Assembly (NCBI RefSeq): GCF_900445265.1
Contig: NZ_UFTA01000002.1
Coordinates: 1,612,001-1,676,000, forward strand
DNA: 64,000 nt
Direction: 5' to 3'
From: Anaerococcus octavius
GTDB taxonomy: Bacteria > Bacillota > Clostridia > Tissierellales > Peptoniphilaceae
The notes under the pieces are model-generated. The model made no database searches. It was not told where the DNA came from and saw only the letters and a list, made by a program, of their open reading frames with translations. The first letter of the stretch is position 1, and every line of letters begins with the position of its first letter. A program made the translations under genes and the position numbers. Positions 41,060-51,810 of the stretch are shown here, one piece after another.

Positions 41060-43093
41060 ATGATGAAAAAAATTAGCAATAAAATAAATAAAACATTGTT
41101 ACTTGCCTCAACATTATTTGTATCCACTGCTGTTAGTACAGCTGATAAATCATATGCTGATGAAGGGTATGACCTAAATGTTGAACCAAGCAAGTCGACT
41201 GATTTAGATAACTACGAAACTGAAGCAAACGTAGAAAATTCTGAAGCTACTTCTGATGATACTATCAACTATGACAATCAAGCTTTAACTAATGACGAAT
41301 CTATCGATAAATCCCAAAGTCTTACACCACAAGAAAATACTACAGACCAACAAAGCACAGATTCTACACAAAAAGTAGAAGCTGATTTTGAAGTTGAATT
41401 AAATCCAAAAAAAGAAGAAAAAGTAGAAGAAGTTCAAACTCCATCCAGTGATAATCTTGATGAAGTAATCTATTATGATAACTCAAATCTAGATGATGCT
41501 TTAAAAGAAGACTACAAACCAGCTTATAATCAACAAGAAGAAACTTTTAAGCAAGAAAACGAAGAAGAAAATAAAACTAATCAAGCAAATGATACACAAA
41601 CAGTAGAAGAAAATACAAATAATAAATCACAAGAAGAAGAAAAAGACCACGATCAAAATGATCAAGAAGAAGCAGATATTGAACAAACAAATTACTATGC
41701 ACCAAAAGGCACAGGATATTTTGTAAATGAAGGTAATTCTACAAGATATTACGAGGATAACAAGCTTGTAAAAAGTGCTAATGTTATAGTAAAAGATAAA
41801 TTTTACGAAATTGACCAAGATGGTAATGCAACTAACCCAAAAACTCTTTGGGGACGTATTGGAGATAATATTTATTATATGAATGAAGAAGGCAATCTTA
41901 CAAAAGGTATTGCCCAAATTAAAGATAACAAATATTATTTTAACGAAAATGGTCAATTACAAAGAAATAAAAGAATTGTAACTAATGAATCTCATTATGA
42001 ATTAGGTAATGATGGGGCAATGACAGCTCCAACAAATAGCTGGGTTAAGATCAATAACAAAAAATACTATAACGACAATGAAGGCAAGCTACTAAAAGGT
42101 ATTGCTAAAATTGGTGACAAATCATATTACTTCGATAATAATGGTGCGCTTACAGCAAATAAAAAACTATTAGCAGCAAGTAAATACTATGTAGTAGATA
42201 AAAATGGTCAAGCTTACAACCTTGCTAACAAATGGTTTAGCCTTGGTGGTTATACATATAGATCAGGCAATGATGGTAAAGTAGTAAAAGGTGCCCATAA
42301 TATCAACAATAACCTATATGTATTTGATGGAAATGGAAAGTTAGCTCAAAATAAATCATCAATTTCTGCTGGTAAATTTTACAAATCAGATGCAAAAGGT
42401 CTTGCGACAGTTATTAAAAACTCTTGGGTAGAACTAGATGGCAGAAAATATCATACAAATCCAGCAGGTTATGTAAAAGAAGGCGTTTGGAAAATAGATA
42501 ACAATTACTATTATTTCACACAAAATGGACTAACACCAAATCAAACTGTTACACAAAAAGGTGTAGTTTATAAAGTTGATGCAAATGGTATTGCTACAAG
42601 AGAAGATAACAACATTCCAGGAGAAAAAAATATAGATAAAGTAATGGAATGGATGTTTAATGCAAGAGATAAAAGAATGACATATAATATGGGAGCTGGT
42701 AGAAACTCTGCAACACAAGCAGACTGTTCATCAGCAGTTTATAGAGCACTAATTCACGGTGGGTTCCTAAATAAAGATGCTTGGATTGGAAATACAGAAA
42801 CATTATTCCAAATGGGTGCAAAAGGCACTGTAATGTATGAAGTAAAAGAAAATGAGCTTCAATATGGAGATATTTTTGTAGCGGGAAGACCAGGAGGATC
42901 TATAGGAGCAGCAGGCCATACAGGATTTATCCTAAACCCACACGAAGATACAATCATTCATATGACTTATGGAAAAAATGGCGTCGCAGTAACACAAAGA
43001 AAAGGCTACATGGGAGATAGCAGAGGACTACCTGTAAGATATTATAGATTAGTTGGTGCTAACTCTAATGGTGCATATTTGAATAGAAAATAG
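41060..43093 (+). CDS. Secreted peptidoglycan hydrolase with glucan/choline-binding-like repeats and a Pal-type C-terminal domain
   Basis: A 677-residue exported protein. A signal peptide (LLLASTLFVSTAVSTA, about residues 14-32) is followed by an acidic disordered region to about 210. Then come eight or so repeats of the cell-wall-binding kind, with motifs such as DNIYYMNEEGNLTKGIAQI and DNKYYFNENGQLQ (about 215-520). The C-terminal 150 residues match the Amidase_5/NlpC-P60-type domain of phage Dp-1 Pal: VMEWMFNARDKRMTYNMGAG, Cys556 in DCSSAVYRAL, GDIFVAGRPGGSIGAAGH, His620 in GHTGFI, and IIHMTYG. It should cut the peptide-sugar link of peptidoglycan while held on the wall. The domains stand in reverse order to Pal. 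ATG 41063 is an equally possible start. Confidence 0.88.
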   Translation: MMKKISNKINKTLLLASTLFVSTAVSTADKSYADEGYDLNVEPSKSTDLDNYETEANVENSEATSDDTINYDNQALTNDESIDKSQSLTPQENTTDQQSTDSTQKVEADFEVELNPKKEEKVEEVQTPSSDNLDEVIYYDNSNLDDALKEDYKPAYNQQEETFKQENEEENKTNQANDTQTVEENTNNKSQEEEKDHDQNDQEEADIEQTNYYAPKGTGYFVNEGNSTRYYEDNKLVKSANVIVKDKFYEIDQDGNATNPKTLWGRIGDNIYYMNEEGNLTKGIAQIKDNKYYFNENGQLQRNKRIVTNESHYELGNDGAMTAPTNSWVKINNKKYYNDNEGKLLKGIAKIGDKSYYFDNNGALTANKKLLAASKYYVVDKNGQAYNLANKWFSLGGYTYRSGNDGKVVKGAHNINNNLYVFDGNGKLAQNKSSISAGKFYKSDAKGLATVIKNSWVELDGRKYHTNPAGYVKEGVWKIDNNYYYFTQNGLTPNQTVTQKGVVYKVDANGIATREDNNIPGEKNIDKVMEWMFNARDKRMTYNMGAGRNSATQADCSSAVYRALIHGGFLNKDAWIGNTETLFQMGAKGTVMYEVKENELQYGDIFVAGRPGGSIGAAGHTGFILNPHEDTIIHMTYGKNGVAVTQRKGYMGDSRGLPVRYYRLVGANSNGAYLNRK

Positions 43094-43453: not shown

Positions 43454-45661
43454 GTGAAAATGAAAAAAGTTTTCTCTTCCCTAATGGCTTTAGGTATTGT
43501 AACAACCCTAACAGCTTGTGGAGGAAGCACTGATTCAGCAACTTCTACAGATTCTAATGAAGATAAAAAAGCAGAAGAAAATACTGATGACAAAGAAGAT
43601 AAAAAAGAAGACGATAAAACAGCTGAAAACACTGATGGTGATGAACATGCTAAAAATACAGAAGAATTAGAAAACTTCGAAGCACAAACAAGTGATGATA
43701 CCCTTGTAATCGGTAGTTCAGAATTTTCTGGTGACTTCCTAGCTGGATGGCAAAACTCAGCCAATGATGTAGTAATTAGAAAATTACTAGGTATTGAAGG
43801 ATCTAATGGTTTTAATACTATGATCGTTGATGAAAATGGTGAATGGCTTGCCAACTCTGCTGTACTTGAAGGTGAACCAGAAACAACAGATAACAAAGAT
43901 GGTTCAAGAACCTTTACTTTTAAAATCAAACCAGGTTTAAAATGGTCTGATGGAGAAGAATTAACAGCAGATGATTATATTTTTGATTCTTTACTATTTA
44001 CTCACCCAGAATTTATGCCTCTAACAGGATCAATAAATCCAGGGGACCTATTTGGTAAAGGCTATGAAGTCTACCACTCAGGTGAATCTGATACTTTTGA
44101 AGCGGTGGAAAAAATTGACGATCACACATTCACATATACAATCGATAGTGAACAACTTCCTTACTACTACGAAAAAGCTCTAGCTGCAATCTCAGCTTTC
44201 CCAATGCATGTAGTAACTAAAAACTTAGCATTAAGTGAAGATGGTAAAAAACTTATAGCAAAAGATGGATATAAACCTAGTGAAGAAGAAGTAAAAGCAT
44301 ATAAGGATTCTATCCAAGAACAAATTGATAAAGCAAATGAAGAGTTTAAAGAAATAGAAGAACCAGCAGATGATGCATCAGATAATGAAAAGAAAGCTTA
44401 TGAAGAAGAAAAGAAAGCTAATGATGAAAAAATCGCTGATCTTCAAGAAAAACTTGACGGTGATGTTGATCCAACAGAACAACTTATCGAACAGGCTATG
44501 CTAAATGTATATAACGACTATAGATCAAATCCAAGTGTAGTTGGTGGACCATATAAATTTGACGAATACAACAATAATATGGTCAAACTTTCTTTAAACC
44601 CAGAATATCAAGGAAACTTTAAAGGTCAAAAAGCTACAATTCCAAATATTATTGTCCAATATGTAAATCATAATATAGCGGTAGACCTACTAGAAAATGG
44701 CGATATCGATGTATGGCAAGGAGAAAGTGAAGGTGGCAAAATCGATAAGATGAAAGCTGCTGAAGATGCTGGTAAAATCGGTATCAATACTTTCGAAAGA
44801 AACGGTTACGGATCACTTAACTTCTTAACAGATAGAGGAACAACACAATATAAAGAAGTTCGTCAAGCAATTGCTCACTTGATGGATAGAAACACATTTG
44901 TTCAATCCTATGCAGGTGGTTACGGTGTAGTTACAAATGGGGAATATGGTCTTAGCCAATGGATGTATAAAGAACGTGGAGCTGACCTAGAAGGTAAACT
45001 AACAAACTACCAACTAAATATAGACACAGCTAACGAATTACTTGATAAATCACCATACAAATTTGAAAAAAATGGGAAAACTGCTTGGGATCGATCTAAG
45101 GCAGAAGAAGCATTTGACAAGGATGCAGATGGTTTTGACTATTATAGATACAATGATAAGGGTGAAAAACTTGTAGTAAACCAATATGGTTCAGAAGAAT
45201 CACCAATCACAAGTTTAATGAACAGCCAATTACCAGTAAATGCAAAACAAGCTGGTATGGAATATAACGTAACAGCTGGATCATTCCCAACCATTCAAGA
45301 ATACTATGTTTACCCAGAAGAAGATGCAGAATACACAGCATTCTCAATGGCTCAAAGCTTCTCTGAGACATATGATCCTTGGGCTCAATTTAACTCAAAC
45401 GGTAACGACAACAAAACTAGAGTAAATGATCCAAAAGCTGATGAGTTGACAGTTAAACTTCGTCAAACACCACCAGATGATAAAGAACAATACCTAGATA
45501 ATTGGGAAGAATTCCAACAATGGTATAATGACTACTTACCACAAATCCCACTTTACTCTAACCTATATCACACAGGATATACAAAAAGAGTTGAAGGATT
45601 TGATGTAAATACACCATCATGGGGTATAGAAGACCAAATCAATGCTATTAAACTAAAATAG
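43454..45661 (+). CDS. oppA: Oligopeptide ABC transporter substrate-binding lipoprotein OppA
   Basis: A 735-residue family 5 solute-binding lipoprotein. The signal peptide ends in the lipobox LTAC near residue 18, followed by an acidic linker to about 70. The binding domain shows RTFTFKIKPGLKWSDGEELT, typical of OppA. About residues 265-350 form an extra Lys/Glu-rich helical segment (EEVKAYKDSIQEQIDKANEE, then KANDEKIADLQEKLDG) not usual for the family, placed before GGPYKFDEY. It starts with GTG 43454, nine bases after GGAGG; ATG 43460 would be too far. It is separated from oppBCDF by a terminator and a new promoter, so the binding protein can be made in excess. Confidence 0.93.
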   Translation: MKMKKVFSSLMALGIVTTLTACGGSTDSATSTDSNEDKKAEENTDDKEDKKEDDKTAENTDGDEHAKNTEELENFEAQTSDDTLVIGSSEFSGDFLAGWQNSANDVVIRKLLGIEGSNGFNTMIVDENGEWLANSAVLEGEPETTDNKDGSRTFTFKIKPGLKWSDGEELTADDYIFDSLLFTHPEFMPLTGSINPGDLFGKGYEVYHSGESDTFEAVEKIDDHTFTYTIDSEQLPYYYEKALAAISAFPMHVVTKNLALSEDGKKLIAKDGYKPSEEEVKAYKDSIQEQIDKANEEFKEIEEPADDASDNEKKAYEEEKKANDEKIADLQEKLDGDVDPTEQLIEQAMLNVYNDYRSNPSVVGGPYKFDEYNNNMVKLSLNPEYQGNFKGQKATIPNIIVQYVNHNIAVDLLENGDIDVWQGESEGGKIDKMKAAEDAGKIGINTFERNGYGSLNFLTDRGTTQYKEVRQAIAHLMDRNTFVQSYAGGYGVVTNGEYGLSQWMYKERGADLEGKLTNYQLNIDTANELLDKSPYKFEKNGKTAWDRSKAEEAFDKDADGFDYYRYNDKGEKLVVNQYGSEESPITSLMNSQLPVNAKQAGMEYNVTAGSFPTIQEYYVYPEEDAEYTAFSMAQSFSETYDPWAQFNSNGNDNKTRVNDPKADELTVKLRQTPPDDKEQYLDNWEEFQQWYNDYLPQIPLYSNLYHTGYTKRVEGFDVNTPSWGIEDQINAIKLK

Positions 45662-45685
45662 TCAAATAAAAATTAAAACTAAATG

Positions 45686-45709
45686 AGCTCACATCTAGTG
45701 AGCTTTTTT
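45686..45709 (+). terminator. Terminator after oppA
   Basis: AGCTCAC, 5-base loop, GTGAGCT, then TTTTT. Confidence 0.9.
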
Positions 45710-46019: not shown

Positions 46020-46982
46020 ATGTTTCGTTATATATTAAAAAGAATATTAAGCATGATTCCTACTGCTTTAATAATTTCTATAATTCTCTTTGCTTTTTCT
46101 AAAGCCATGCCAGGAGATCCTATCCAAGCAATGATGCCTCAAGGAACAGCTATGACCAAGACCCAAGAAGAACAATTATACAAAAACTTATCAGAAAGAT
46201 ATGGACTTGATAAATCATATACAGAACAATATGTAAGATGGCTTGGTAGAATGCTAAAGGGAGATTTTGGTGAATCTCTTAGAGTAAGAAAACCAGTAAA
46301 AGATTATCTAAAAGAGCCTTTAAAAAATACTATCTACCTAAATATAGGTTCTACTATTTTATCATTTGTCTTATCCATACTAATAGGTATAAGGTCGGCT
46401 ACCCACAGGGGTGGAGCTTTTGATAAGATCTTCCAGACACTAACCCTAATTGGTATATCAATTCCTATATTTTTTATTGCCCTACTTTTAATATATTTCT
46501 TTTCATTTAGGTTAAAATGGCTGCCAGCAAATGGTATGCCACGTCAAAATACTTTTGGTCAATGGGTAAGATATTTAACTTTACCAACCATTGCTCTAAC
46601 TATAGGTTCTCTAGCTTCATTATCTAGATATGTAAGAAACTCTATGCTAGATGCTCTAAATCAAGATTATATTAGAACTGCAAGAAGTAAGGGTCTAAAA
46701 GAAAAGACAGTTATTTATTCACATGCTTTTAGAAATGCCCTTATACCAGTAGTTACAGCTCTAACTTGGGCTATTTTAGGAATGTTTTCAGGATCTGCAA
46801 TTACAGAACGTATTTTCTCATACAGAGGCATAGGAAATGAACTTATAATTGCAGTTATTGCCCAAGATTACAATATAATTTTAGCTTTATCAATGTTTTA
46901 CGCCGTACTGACACTTTTAGGCAACTTGATAATGGATATAGCCTATGCATTGGTTGATCCAAGAGTAAGACTGGAAGCTTAA
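46020..46982 (+). CDS. oppB: Oligopeptide ABC transporter permease OppB
   Basis: A 320-residue OppB/DppB-type permease of normal length with six membrane segments. It has the N-terminal MFRYILKRILSMIPTALIIS and the extracytoplasmic YGLDKSYTEQYVRWLGRMLK segment. The EAA loop that contacts the ATPase reads YIRTARSKGLKEKTVIYSHA near residue 220. It ends YALVDPRVRLEA as expected. With OppC it forms the peptide channel; oppC starts 11 bases later. Confidence 0.96.
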   Translation: MFRYILKRILSMIPTALIISIILFAFSKAMPGDPIQAMMPQGTAMTKTQEEQLYKNLSERYGLDKSYTEQYVRWLGRMLKGDFGESLRVRKPVKDYLKEPLKNTIYLNIGSTILSFVLSILIGIRSATHRGGAFDKIFQTLTLIGISIPIFFIALLLIYFFSFRLKWLPANGMPRQNTFGQWVRYLTLPTIALTIGSLASLSRYVRNSMLDALNQDYIRTARSKGLKEKTVIYSHAFRNALIPVVTALTWAILGMFSGSAITERIFSYRGIGNELIIAVIAQDYNIILALSMFYAVLTLLGNLIMDIAYALVDPRVRLEA

Positions 46983-46992
46983 GAGGTGTAGT

Positions 46993-48972
46993 ATGAATAA
47001 AACTTTTAATAAATCGATCAAATCATATGGTAAATTTTTAAAATCATACTTGCGTTTAGGCTTTACTTTTTCAAATGATCTGCCAAATATGGACAATGGT
47101 AGAAGGTTACCAGAAGATGAGAAACTTGATAAAGATGTTAGAAAAAATTTAAATAATCCAAACTCAAATGTTGGAGCAGGACCTGATCCTACTAGCGAAA
47201 ATAAAGATTTAAAAGAAGAAGCAATTCTTTCTCCAGGAAAGGTTGCAGTTAAAAACTTCTTTAGAAATCCACTTGGAGTTATTGGACTTATAATGTTTGT
47301 TGCAATTATTTTGCTTGTTTTTATAGGATCTGCCGTTCTCCCATTTAACCAATATTATTCCCAAGGTAACCTTACAAATGTTGCCCCTGGTGGAGCTTAC
47401 ATGAATTTTCCAAAAGAAATGGAAAAAGAAGGCAGCAAAAAAATTTCAATTGGTAATACTTTTGCTGTAGGTCTTACAAATGAAGATAATGTTTATATTT
47501 GGGGATCAGATAATGAAGATAAGGTACTAACAGTCCCTAGTGAAGTTAAAAAAGCCCTTCAAGGAAAAAAAGTAATTGATGTTGCAGCGGGTGATAGGCA
47601 TATCTTAGTTGCGACTGAGGATAATGAGATCTTTGGCTGGGGAAATAATTCCTTTGAACAAACAAAGATGCCTCCAATGCAAGAAAACCAAATCAAAACT
47701 GAAGGTATAGAAAAACTTGGAGCAGGTGTTCAGTATTCAGTTGTCCTTACCAAGGCAAAAAATCTTGTAGTATGGGGATCAACCATGGCTAGCCGCCTAA
47801 ACTTGATACCATCTGAAGTACAAGGAAAAGTAGAAGACTTTGATACATCACCAATCAATATGATAGTTGCCAAAACTGACGGTACAGTTCAACTTTTAGG
47901 AGTACTTGGAGCAGAAAATCAGACAACTATGCCAAAAAAACTTACAGATGGGACTGTTTTTGTAAAAAAAGTTGCCCTTACAAGTTCTTCTGCAGCAGCC
48001 ATTGATGATAAAGGAAAACTTTATGTTTGGGGACCAAGCAGGGATCAAATTTCTGGAGCTAATGTTCCAGAATTTGAAGCACCAATTGTAGATATCCAGG
48101 GAGCAGATACAACTTTTACTGCCCTTGATGAAAACGGCAAACTTTACTCTTGGGGTAAGGATAACTACGGAGAATTAAAAACCCCAGATGGAGAATTTGA
48201 ACAAATATATGCATCTTATTTTAACCAATATGCAGTAGATAAGGAAGGAAATATCAAAACTTGGGGACTAAATGGTTTTAGATTTGGTTCAGATGATCAA
48301 GGACGTGATATATTTACAAGATTAATTCACGGTGGTCGTATGACAATGATTATTTCTTTAATTTCTACAATTATCCAAGTAGTGCTTGGTGTAGCAATTG
48401 GTATGATTTCAGGATTTGCAGGTGGACGTGTGGATAATATTTTAATGAGAGTATCAGAAATTATTTCATCATTCCCATTTTATCCAATGCTAATTTCACT
48501 TTCTGCCCTACTTCCACCAGGAGCTAGCCAAACTCAAAGAATTACCATGGTAATGGTACTTTTAGGTTTACTAGGTTGGACAGGACTTGCACGACTTGTA
48601 CGTGGGCAAATCCTTGCAGAACGAGAACGAGATTATATCACAGCAGCTCGTGCCCTTGGTGTAAAAAATTCTCAAATAATGATAAAACACATATTGCCAA
48701 ATATATTATCTATAGTAATTGTAAATGCAACCTTAGCTTATGCAGGCAACTTGCTAACAGAATCAGGTTTATCATTTTTAGGTTTTGGTGTTCAAGAACC
48801 AACACCATCATGGGGTAATATGCTATCAGCTGCCCAAAGTTCAGAAGTGTTAAATATCTACTGGTGGAGATGGGTATTCCCAGCCCTTGCAGTATTTTTA
48901 GTATCATTTTCTGTAAACTTAATTGGGGATGCTATAAGAGATGCTATAGACCCTAGAGCAAATGAGAGATAG
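46993..48972 (+). CDS. oppC: Oligopeptide ABC transporter permease OppC with an inserted RCC1-like beta-propeller
   Basis: A 659-residue OppC; the family is normally 290-350. After a cytoplasmic N-terminus and the first membrane segment (LGVIGLIMFVAIILLVFIGS, about residues 93-112), about 300 residues are inserted in the first external loop. They hold seven units of RCC1 type, each with a strand and a Trp-Gly turn, e.g. NVYIWGSDNE, EIFGWGNNSF, NLVVWGSTMA, KLYVWGPSRD, KLYSWGKDNY and NIKTWGLNGF. One unit is degenerate (TVQLLGVLG). Normal OppC resumes at GSDDQGRDIFTRLIHGGR near residue 432, with EAA loop YITAARALGVKNSQIMIKHI and the ending DAIDPRANER. The reading frame is continuous. Confidence 0.95.
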   Translation: MNKTFNKSIKSYGKFLKSYLRLGFTFSNDLPNMDNGRRLPEDEKLDKDVRKNLNNPNSNVGAGPDPTSENKDLKEEAILSPGKVAVKNFFRNPLGVIGLIMFVAIILLVFIGSAVLPFNQYYSQGNLTNVAPGGAYMNFPKEMEKEGSKKISIGNTFAVGLTNEDNVYIWGSDNEDKVLTVPSEVKKALQGKKVIDVAAGDRHILVATEDNEIFGWGNNSFEQTKMPPMQENQIKTEGIEKLGAGVQYSVVLTKAKNLVVWGSTMASRLNLIPSEVQGKVEDFDTSPINMIVAKTDGTVQLLGVLGAENQTTMPKKLTDGTVFVKKVALTSSSAAAIDDKGKLYVWGPSRDQISGANVPEFEAPIVDIQGADTTFTALDENGKLYSWGKDNYGELKTPDGEFEQIYASYFNQYAVDKEGNIKTWGLNGFRFGSDDQGRDIFTRLIHGGRMTMIISLISTIIQVVLGVAIGMISGFAGGRVDNILMRVSEIISSFPFYPMLISLSALLPPGASQTQRITMVMVLLGLLGWTGLARLVRGQILAERERDYITAARALGVKNSQIMIKHILPNILSIVIVNATLAYAGNLLTESGLSFLGFGVQEPTPSWGNMLSAAQSSEVLNIYWWRWVFPALAVFLVSFSVNLIGDAIRDAIDPRANER

Positions 48973-48981
48973 AGGAAAATA

Positions 48982-49986
48982 ATGAGCTTATTAGAAATAA
49001 ATAATCTCCACACATATTTCTCCACAAGAAAAGGCCTCATCAAAGCTGTAAATGGAGTTTCCTTTACAGTTGATGAGGGAAAAACCCTAGGTCTTGTAGG
49101 AGAGTCTGGTTCAGGTAAAAGCCAAACTGCCATGAGTATTTTGCAATTATTTGAGCCAAACCAAAAAATATATAACGGAGAAATCATATATAAGGGTGAG
49201 GACCTAGTAAAATATAAAAGAAGTCAAATGGAAAAAATTAGAGGCAATGAAATATCTATGATTTTCCAAGAGCCAATGAGCTCCCTAAACCCGGTATTTA
49301 CAGTAGAAAGACAAATCTCAGAAGTTTTAATGCTTCATAGAAATATGAATAAGCAAGAAGCGGCAAAAAGAACTGAAGAATTACTAGCTTCTGTAAAAAT
49401 CCCAAACCCTCATGTAGTTGTCAAGCAGTATCCCTTTGAACTATCAGGTGGGATGAACCAAAGGGTAATGATTGCAATGGCGCTTACCTGCGAGCCAAAA
49501 TTATTAATTGCAGATGAGCCAACAACAGCCCTTGATGTAACTATCCAAGCGCAAATTTTAAGGTTGATGAATGATTTAAAACATAGGCTAAACACTTCTA
49601 TTTTATTTATCACCCACGACCTTGGAGTTATCAACCAAATGGCAGATGAAGTTGCGGTTATGTATTCTGGGCAAATTGTAGAACAATCACCAGTAGAGTT
49701 TATCTTTAAACACGATATTACTGACTACAACCACCCATATACAGTAGCACTTTTAAACTCCATTCCATCAATAACTAGTGATAAAAACCAAAGACTAGAT
49801 ATAATTCCAGGATCTGTACCACACCCACTAAACCTTCCAAAGGGATGTAAATTTGCAGATAGGTGTAAATTTGCTACAGAAAAATGTGTAAACGAGATGC
49901 CTGAGCTAGTTGCGGTAAATGAGCACCAAAGAATTAGATGTCACTATCCAAATAGAAAGGAAAGGGAAGATGGAAAATACGAATGA
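48982..49986 (+). CDS. oppD: Oligopeptide ABC transporter ATPase OppD
   Basis: A 334-residue ABC ATPase of normal OppD length. Walker A is GESGSGKSQT near residue 38, the signature LSGGMNQRVMIAMAL near 155, and Walker B LLIADEPTTALDVT near 173. The C-terminal oligopeptide-transporter domain has CKFADRCKFATEKC, whose four cysteines bind an iron-sulphur cluster in homologues. The last 17 bases overlap the start of oppF. Confidence 0.96.
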   Translation: MSLLEINNLHTYFSTRKGLIKAVNGVSFTVDEGKTLGLVGESGSGKSQTAMSILQLFEPNQKIYNGEIIYKGEDLVKYKRSQMEKIRGNEISMIFQEPMSSLNPVFTVERQISEVLMLHRNMNKQEAAKRTEELLASVKIPNPHVVVKQYPFELSGGMNQRVMIAMALTCEPKLLIADEPTTALDVTIQAQILRLMNDLKHRLNTSILFITHDLGVINQMADEVAVMYSGQIVEQSPVEFIFKHDITDYNHPYTVALLNSIPSITSDKNQRLDIIPGSVPHPLNLPKGCKFADRCKFATEKCVNEMPELVAVNEHQRIRCHYPNRKEREDGKYE

Positions 49987-51592
49987 TAAAAAGGTCTTAT
50001 TTAAGATAAGAGACCTTAAAAAATATTTCCCTCTTAAGAAAAAAGGACTTTTTAATAAGGGACCAAGTTCCTATGTTCATGCCAACGAATCAATTTCTAT
50101 TGACATCTATGAAGGTGAAACACTAGGTCTAGTAGGAGAATCTGGATGTGGTAAATCTACATTTGGTAGAACACTTTTACAAATCTATGACCAAACAGAG
50201 GGAACAACCCTATACTACGGCAAAACTTTAGAAGATGTTGCTCCAGCATATATGGGAACCATGATAAAAAATATCCCAAGCCAATTTCCAAGCTATGCAA
50301 CTGCAAACGATGAGCTAAATGCTATCTATAATGAGCTAGAAAATGCTACAGATGATGAAGCGCATGCAGCAGCCAATGAAAAAGCTATGTTTAAACGCCG
50401 TGAGATAGAAGAAAAATATCTAAATATGATAAGAATTGCTGGAGGACTTTTAGTAAGTGATGATCTAGCGAAAGTACAAAGTCTTTTAAATGAGTATTAT
50501 TTAAGCTTAAAAGAGCATTCCAAAGTTATAAACGATATAGAGTTTTTTGAGCAAAAACTACAAATGAGATCTAGACAATGGGATGAATATTATCAAAAAT
50601 GTGATAATGACCCAAGATACAAAGAATTAATTGCAAAAAGAGATGAACTTTCAAAAGTAGTAGGCGAAAAATATAACAGTATCGAAACTTATAGAGATAC
50701 TCTAAAAGATAAAGAAGGTTTTGAAGAATTAGAAAGCCAAAGAGATAATGGTATTGATTTATCAGAATTAAATGATGAAGAAATGCGTGAAATGAGAAAA
50801 GACCTACAAATGATATTCCAAGACCCATATGGATCACTAGATAGCAAAATGACAGTTGGAAATATCATCGGTGAAGGTGTGCTTGGCCATGATTTATTCA
50901 AATCAAGAAAAGATAAGGGCTACAATGAGTACATCCAAGAAACTATGGAGAAATGTGGCCTTGCTCCATATTTCTTGCACAGGTATCCTCACCAATTCTC
51001 AGGTGGACAAAGGCAAAGAATCGGTATTGCAAGAGCTCTTGCCCTAAAACCAAGTTTTATAGTTTGTGATGAGGCAGTATCTGCCCTTGACGTATCAATC
51101 CAGTCTCAAATTATAAACTTATTGCAAGACCTAAAAGATCAACAAAATAACCTAACCTACTTATTTATTACCCATGACCTTTCAGTTGTAAAATACATTT
51201 CTGATCGTATCGGGGTAATGTATTTAGGAGTTTTGGTAGAACTTGCAAGTACAGAGCAAATTTTTGACAACCCTTCCCACCCATATACAAAAGCCTTATT
51301 GCAAGCAATTCCTAGAACAGATGTGGACCAAGGCCAAGAACTGCAAACAATCGAGGGAGATATTCCTTCAGCAGTAAATCCACCAATAGGATGCCGTTTC
51401 CACACCAGATGCCAATATGCAATGGATATTTGTAAAACTTACCAACCACAGCTAAAAGACTACGGCAATTGTCACTATGTAGCCTGTCACTTGATGGAAG
51501 TAAGTGAAGAAGAAAAACAAAAAGCCTTTGAAGAAAATAAAGCTATAAAAGAAAAAGTAGAACATAATTTAGAAGAAATGAGTTATCTATGA
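49970..51592 (+). CDS. oppF: Oligopeptide ABC transporter ATPase OppF with a large helical insertion
   Basis: A 540-residue OppF; the family is usually 305-340. Walker A is GESGCGKSTFGRTLLQIYD near residue 58. Shortly after, at about residues 78-275, some 195 helical, charged residues are inserted (ELNAIYNELENATDDEAHAA, KYLNMIRIAGGLL, FFEQKLQMRSRQWDEYYQKC). Then the Q-loop follows as LQMIFQDPYGSLDSKM, the signature as FSGGQRQRIGIARAL and Walker B as FIVCDEAVSALDVS. The C-terminal Cys domain is GCRFHTRCQYAMDIC. ATG 49970 has a strong GGAAAGG site; an upstream in-frame ATG (49919) has none. The insertion sits where the nucleotide-binding domain meets the permease loops. Confidence 0.95.
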   Translation: MENTNDKKVLFKIRDLKKYFPLKKKGLFNKGPSSYVHANESISIDIYEGETLGLVGESGCGKSTFGRTLLQIYDQTEGTTLYYGKTLEDVAPAYMGTMIKNIPSQFPSYATANDELNAIYNELENATDDEAHAAANEKAMFKRREIEEKYLNMIRIAGGLLVSDDLAKVQSLLNEYYLSLKEHSKVINDIEFFEQKLQMRSRQWDEYYQKCDNDPRYKELIAKRDELSKVVGEKYNSIETYRDTLKDKEGFEELESQRDNGIDLSELNDEEMREMRKDLQMIFQDPYGSLDSKMTVGNIIGEGVLGHDLFKSRKDKGYNEYIQETMEKCGLAPYFLHRYPHQFSGGQRQRIGIARALALKPSFIVCDEAVSALDVSIQSQIINLLQDLKDQQNNLTYLFITHDLSVVKYISDRIGVMYLGVLVELASTEQIFDNPSHPYTKALLQAIPRTDVDQGQELQTIEGDIPSAVNPPIGCRFHTRCQYAMDICKTYQPQLKDYGNCHYVACHLMEVSEEEKQKAFEENKAIKEKVEHNLEEMSYL

Positions 51593-51781: not shown

Positions 51782-51810
51782 AGATGAGATTTTAATCTCA
51801 TCTTTTTTTT
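51782..51810 (+). terminator. Terminator of the oppBCDF operon
   Basis: AGATGAGATT, 2 central bases, AATCTCATCT, followed by seven or more T. Confidence 0.92.

Follow-up and report, generated by a model that had tools for sequence, protein, structure and literature searches.

A predicted seven-bladed propeller in the OppC loop and a helical insert in OppF occur together in one clade of Opp/Dpp-type importers

The oppC gene of Anaerococcus octavius carries, between its first transmembrane helix and its GSDDQGRD motif, an insert that is predicted to fold as a seven-bladed RCC1-type propeller. The permeases of this kind form one clade, and a helical insert in the ATPase OppF occurs jointly with the propeller. 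The DNA analysed, called the window here, is the whole stretch of 64,000 nucleotides (contig NZ_UFTA01000002.1, positions 1,612,001 to 1,676,000). We tentatively believe, at slightly less than even confidence, that these operons are a distinct OppABCDF lineage in which the outer propeller holds or positions OppA at hand-over, with the OppF insert in the same half of the transporter. We rate the importer as a variant of a known importer, not as a new kind.

The operon lies on the forward strand in the order oppA, oppB, oppC, oppD, oppF. Its products are an SBP_bac_5 protein, two permeases, the C subunit of which has OppC_N and BPD_transp_1 domains, and two ATPases with oligo_HPY tails. By this gene content it is probably an Opp/Dpp-type importer of peptides. 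The genes oppB (46020..46982, 320 aa; Pfam BPD_transp_1) and oppD (48982..49986, 334 aa; ABC_tran and oligo_HPY) are of ordinary length, and the medians of propeller and ordinary rows hardly differed (OppB 326 vs 321.5, OppD 331 vs 338). Terminator-like hairpins, of which 7 were found vs 4.6 expected, stand after oppA (45685-45705) and after oppF (51782-51803), and could permit more OppA than permease to be made. The promoter and terminator scan is not informative about the propeller. Just upstream of the operon lies an amidase (41060-43093) with choline-binding-type repeats. In some loci (L035, L038, L040, L042, which is also L174, L124, L170, L171 and L172), a tandem pair of oppA-like genes precedes oppB, so two binding proteins may use a single permease; the first gene of the pair is cut by the end of the locus in some of them. 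In Anaerococcus sp. 9403502, a second propeller-OppC (L050) was found in a B-C-A arrangement with no adjoining oppF, on the same contig as L175, and may draw on the same ATPases as the main operon. In some genomes or drafts, apparently split or shifted OppA or OppF frames were seen (L051/L173, L103, L157, L214 and L215).

The oppC frame (46993..48972, forward strand) runs through 659 codons without interruption, as the sequence-only reading had stated; the single frame read on the reverse strand over it was full of stops. Pfam placed OppC_N at residues 80-124, RCC1-type repeats between about residues 140 and 425, and BPD_transp_1 at residues 466-656 (E 8.4e-33). The first transmembrane helix (residues 93-115, 47269..47337) is a low-confidence model helix within the OppC_N match. 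The core (residues 427-659, 48271..48969) contains GSDDQGRD at residues 432-439, and in a sequence search of solved structures it matched E. coli OppC 8z21_B over 427-655 (E 5.4e-50). The claimed position of the insert, after the first helix and before GSDDQGRD, and the claim that the rest of OppC is normal were therefore borne out, the former with the helix at low confidence. The protein begins with a variable extension (residues 1-79, 46993..47229), which is probably cytoplasmic by homology; its conservation is 0.26 vs 0.67 in the core, and residues 1-74 were modelled with pLDDT below 50. The membrane part of the model was poor (block pLDDT 30-62). The best-scoring of the 25 NCBIfam families shown for OppC was the Opp4C equivalog, and because its 305.2 bits are below the curated cut-off of 350, OppC was not filed as Opp4C.

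The model of the insert (residues 148-426, 47434..48270) has seven blades of three strands each, comprising residues 148-171, 194-217, 239-262, 280-302, 324-346, 365-388 and 402-426. Residues 141 to 420 make up 28 blocks of ten; the pLDDT was 82-93 in 23 of these and 61-77 in the other five, and block 421-430 had 56. The profile search agreed with the model: RCC1_2 scored 110.1 bits (cut-off 22; E 2.9e-32) and RCC1 scored 26.9 bits (cut-off 21.7). WD40_RLD, the RCC1-like domain, also matched (E 1.2e-34), with 120.7 bits for the whole protein and 124 for the domain alone. Since its gathering cut-off of 150 was missed, the propeller was filed by fold and RCC1_2 with the BLIP-II-like superfamily and not with WD40_RLD. 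Sequence matches to the solved structures of HERC2, UVR8 and BLIP-II were also obtained, and the match to an RCC1-type domain is far from chance. By prediction, the insert is a seven-bladed propeller fold of RCC1 type, contrary to the foreseen alternative that no such fold would be predicted. The earlier count of seven strand/Trp-Gly units held for the blades and failed for the motif in one of them, as the fourth unit ends in LLG and Trp-Gly closes 6 of the 7. The three RCC1_2 matches in the genome of the window all fall within this OppC. Within the propeller, one weak family of DNA repeats was found, so no recent doubling of blades is visible. RCC1 repeats were also seen in other frames of two relatives of the same order, of 529 residues (G891:C87) and of 455 and 436 residues (G895:C11 and C4).

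Ordinary OppC proteins, including those of L128, L131 and L132, were compared at the insertion site. They read N.PPSS.HWLGTDEQGRD, and the corresponding text here is NVAPGG, the propeller and GFRFGSDDQGRD. From this aligned text, the propeller replaces a few residues just before GTDxxGRD, between TM1 and TM2. The TM1-TM2 region is described as periplasmic in E. coli DppB and DppC (PMC12136057), and the propeller is therefore placed outside the membrane. For this part of the sequence-only reading, the location in the TM1-TM2 loop stood, and the outer position would follow by homology with DppC.

Propeller-OppC was found in all 31 genomes of the genus (32 copies, 65-100% identical); the matches began at residue 1-5 or 53-68 of the query and all reached 659. 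The nearest named relatives of the protein are from Anaerococcus. The survey of the family gave 44 of 130 genomes, being the 31 of the genus and 13 in nine further genera, two of which first matched in two pieces and were then confirmed. In the class, 17 of 391 genomes were positive; 14 matched across the whole query, and the partial matches of G143, G347 and G052 were counted after confirmation by an RCC1 match of their own. The phylum sample gave 14 of 398 genomes; the samples overlap (G000, G013, G015, G052, G192). The remaining matches in family, class and phylum, at the E-value limits used, covered the permease core alone, in frames of 276-417 residues. Weak matches in G010 and G001 were listed with an 800-residue frame; inspection of the one in G010 (L180) found an ordinary frame of 283 residues. 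A distant propeller-OppC came from an Oscillospiraceae MAG (L052, 36% identical). In all 16 hand-chosen distant members, the Pfam scan recovered OppC_N, RCC1_2, WD40_RLD and BPD_transp_1. In the plasmid collection, no record covered 80% of the OppC query. It had been foreseen that the insert might be absent from all relatives and arise from misassembly; fusion of neighbouring genes in a single genome would be a similar explanation. All 31 genomes of the genus, and genomes of other families, have the same frame, which rules this out and makes its probability virtually negligible.

A tree of the OppC core was built from 81 rows, with the insert excluded and near-duplicate loci removed beforehand. 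A branch with support 100/99, present in 100% of 200 bootstrap trees, separated the 53 propeller rows from the 28 ordinary rows, which were mostly best core-only matches. Trees of OppD (71 rows) and of OppB (78 rows), built quickly and with some long branches within the ordinary rows, showed the same split with support 100 and 98. The propeller was apparently taken up once by the TM1-TM2 loop of OppC, and its lineage is long-standing and spread over many families. The family of the window occurs in more than one place within the clade, which suggests transfer or old duplicates.

The second large insert is in OppF. The start of oppF (49970..51592, 540 aa from ATG, ABC_tran and oligo_HPY) was picked from the lengths of relatives; the longest frame begins at 49919. 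Between Walker A and the Q-loop lies a predicted helical insert of about 175 residues (50228..50755), so that the spacing is 219 vs 40-47 in ordinary OppF. After two same-contig duplicates were dropped, 48 of 51 propeller rows had a spacing of 188-235; the others were L050, with no oppF in its operon, L152, at a contig end, and L162, with a broken oppF. The spacing was 40-47 in 20 of 28 ordinary rows, and the other eight had no measurable oppF. The insert was thus present in 48/48 measurable propeller operons vs 0/20 ordinary operons. A scan of the 398 phylum genomes surveyed above, with the OppF insert as query, was run so that selection did not depend on OppC. It gave 14 genomes with a match reaching into the insert (two partial), 13 of which were also among the 14 phylum genomes with propeller-OppC. 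The two mismatches were G843, in which the propeller-OppC adjoins a contig end, and G685, in which an oppD-oppF pair with the insert (L213, G685:C42) stands without neighbouring oppA, oppB or oppC. G685 has two OppC-like matches; the one read was ordinary and the other was a 150-residue frame. By eye, the neighbours of this oppD-oppF pair look like genes of threonine breakdown and of an ABC importer of nucleoside type. In the OppF model, which was poor in its ATPase part, the insert consists of long helices, with residues 91-260 at pLDDT 72-95. No Pfam family reached its cut-off in the insert; the best 50 matches listed in the OppF fold search were ABC ATPases alone and gave no information on it. 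No account of such an insert was found in the literature among the matches listed.

The binding protein is also enlarged in this lineage. OppA (43454..45661, 735 aa; SBP_bac_5, 1.1e-32) has a lipid-anchor-type cysteine followed by an acidic tether. Before GGPY it has about 100 extra residues (residues about 259-360, window about 44228-44533), which are rich in Lys and Glu and probably helical. The WSDG-to-GGPY spacing is 188, vs 79-94 in those 8 ordinary rows that yielded the motif. After WSDG, 482-612 residues followed in 37 propeller rows vs 404-453 in 13 ordinary rows; these rows hold pattern-caught OppA, and some loci contribute two. In the propeller row L161 the spacing was 88, so either the extra residues differ in position among the proteins or the motif was misidentified. 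The sizes of the extra stretch and of the tether vary within the lineage. The idea of a longer tether that reaches over the propeller was rejected as a general rule: tethers are long in Anaerococcus, and the cysteine-to-motif distances overlap (81-152 in 34 rows, including the ordinary OppA of L176, vs 76-125 in 8).

The propeller is under purifying selection. Its dN/dS against five relatives was 0.07-0.13, and that of the OppC core was 0.04-0.08, lower than the propeller in four of the five pairs. Among 61 distinct sequences, the most conserved propeller positions were mainly fold residues (Trp-Gly, Gly, Pro), blades 7, 1 and 2 were slightly more conserved than the others, and conservation outlined no clear binding patch. 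In 43 complete operons, propeller distances correlated best with OppA distances among the parts compared (r 0.911). With the core, OppB, OppD and the OppF core held fixed, the partial r was 0.395 (p 0.001). The values for the OppF core (0.363), OppB (0.348) and the OppF insert (0.298) were close, and that for the OppC core was 0.029. This co-variation lends weak support, short of proof, to contact between propeller and OppA, being positive and not specific to OppA.

OppABCDF and DppABCDF are type I ABC importers with the same five-gene A-B-C-D-F operon as here, and they share the OppC_N and BPD_transp_1 permease, the two oligo_HPY ATPases and the SBP_bac_5 protein. The operon of the window differs from them in the propeller of ~280 residues in the OppC loop, the OppF insert of ~175 residues and the larger OppA. 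MalF-P2 of the maltose importer lies in a different loop and in a different importer family. It too is a large, folded stretch on the outer side that is built into a permease subunit (residues 91-271 of MalF in MalFGK2), and it contacts the binding protein MalE, whereas the contact of the OppC propeller with OppA is putative; the passages on MalF-P2 do not term it a propeller (PMC3150292). In the E. coli Dpp complex, DppB and DppD form one pair and DppC and DppF the other, and DppA caps both permeases (PMC12136057). The scoop motif of DppB enters the cleft of DppA and is proposed to seal the outward cavity. Like the propeller, it belongs to the TM1-TM2 outer region of one permease subunit, and it interacts with the binding protein; it differs in having ~30 residues, in two short helices and a loop, and in being part of the B subunit (PMC12136057). 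The closest solved member of the RCC1/BLIP-II superfamily is BLIP-II (3qi0, 1jtd), a secreted inhibitor that binds another protein (PMC9218822); here the propeller is looped out of a membrane permease. In a full-text search of open-access papers, no description of an RCC1 domain or propeller in a peptide or ABC transporter permease was found. The earlier remark that no transporter of this design was described is so far uncontradicted by open-access text, and subscription papers or domain databases may hold one.

Most economically, the propeller is read as a platform on which OppA docks or hands over its peptide, and the OppF insert as its partner on the inner side. The sequence-only reading had suggested a docking platform for OppA, a substrate filter or a signalling surface, each of them a putative role. 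The propeller would stand outside the membrane, beside or above the entrance formed by OppB and OppC. There it would hold or position OppA while the peptide is handed over, much as MalF-P2 does in maltose import. From the pairing of DppC with DppF in the solved E. coli complex, the insert in OppF should lie below the OppC half, and it may report on or restrain that half. We infer both the contact with OppA and the coupling to OppF. A stronger form, which we consider doubtful, is that one half has control modules on both faces, the OppC propeller outside and the OppF helical domain inside, which cooperate and make import conditional on the propeller's state, with OppA held or a ligand bound from outside; the importer would then be a separate architectural class.

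Since the propeller rows are in one clade, their joint occurrence with the OppF insert may reflect shared descent alone. Taken further, both inserts would be passengers without a joint role, kept together by inheritance of the operon as one unit; the trees of OppB, OppC and OppD each show one clade, and the joint occurrence may therefore be one event. Against this, neither insert is missing in the 48 measurable operons, the propeller is conserved at a dN/dS of 0.07-0.13, and G685, the sole locus with the OppF insert and no adjoining propeller, lacks OppA and OppB there as well. We regard passengers as very improbable. It is unlikely, at a higher probability than that, that the propeller binds a partner other than OppA and thereby links the importer to a source of peptides or senses such a source; the partner would be material of the cell wall, a peptidase that is secreted or on the surface, or an inhibitor. 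The binding habit of secreted BLIP-II (PMC9218822), the lack of a clear OppA-facing patch in the conservation data and the amidase upstream in the window speak for such a partner, whereas the enlargement of OppA itself speaks against it. The propeller could also be a lid or sieve over the entrance, which holds long peptides or stops leakage as an OppC-side counterpart of the DppB scoop. It occupies the TM1-TM2 region, as does the scoop with its proposed sealing of the cavity (PMC12136057), and OppB in the propeller operons has its ordinary length; we consider this quite improbable. We thus retain, tentatively, the platform for OppA.

Most of what is known about the cooperation of binding protein and permease in ABC importers comes from a small number of model systems. 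A stable, compact propeller, kept in the permease across many families and found beside an enlarged OppF and OppA, offers a natural variant on which to test docking, gating and regulation. Opp systems also import signal peptides in Gram-positive bacteria (PMC10569065), and a regulated importer would therefore matter there too.
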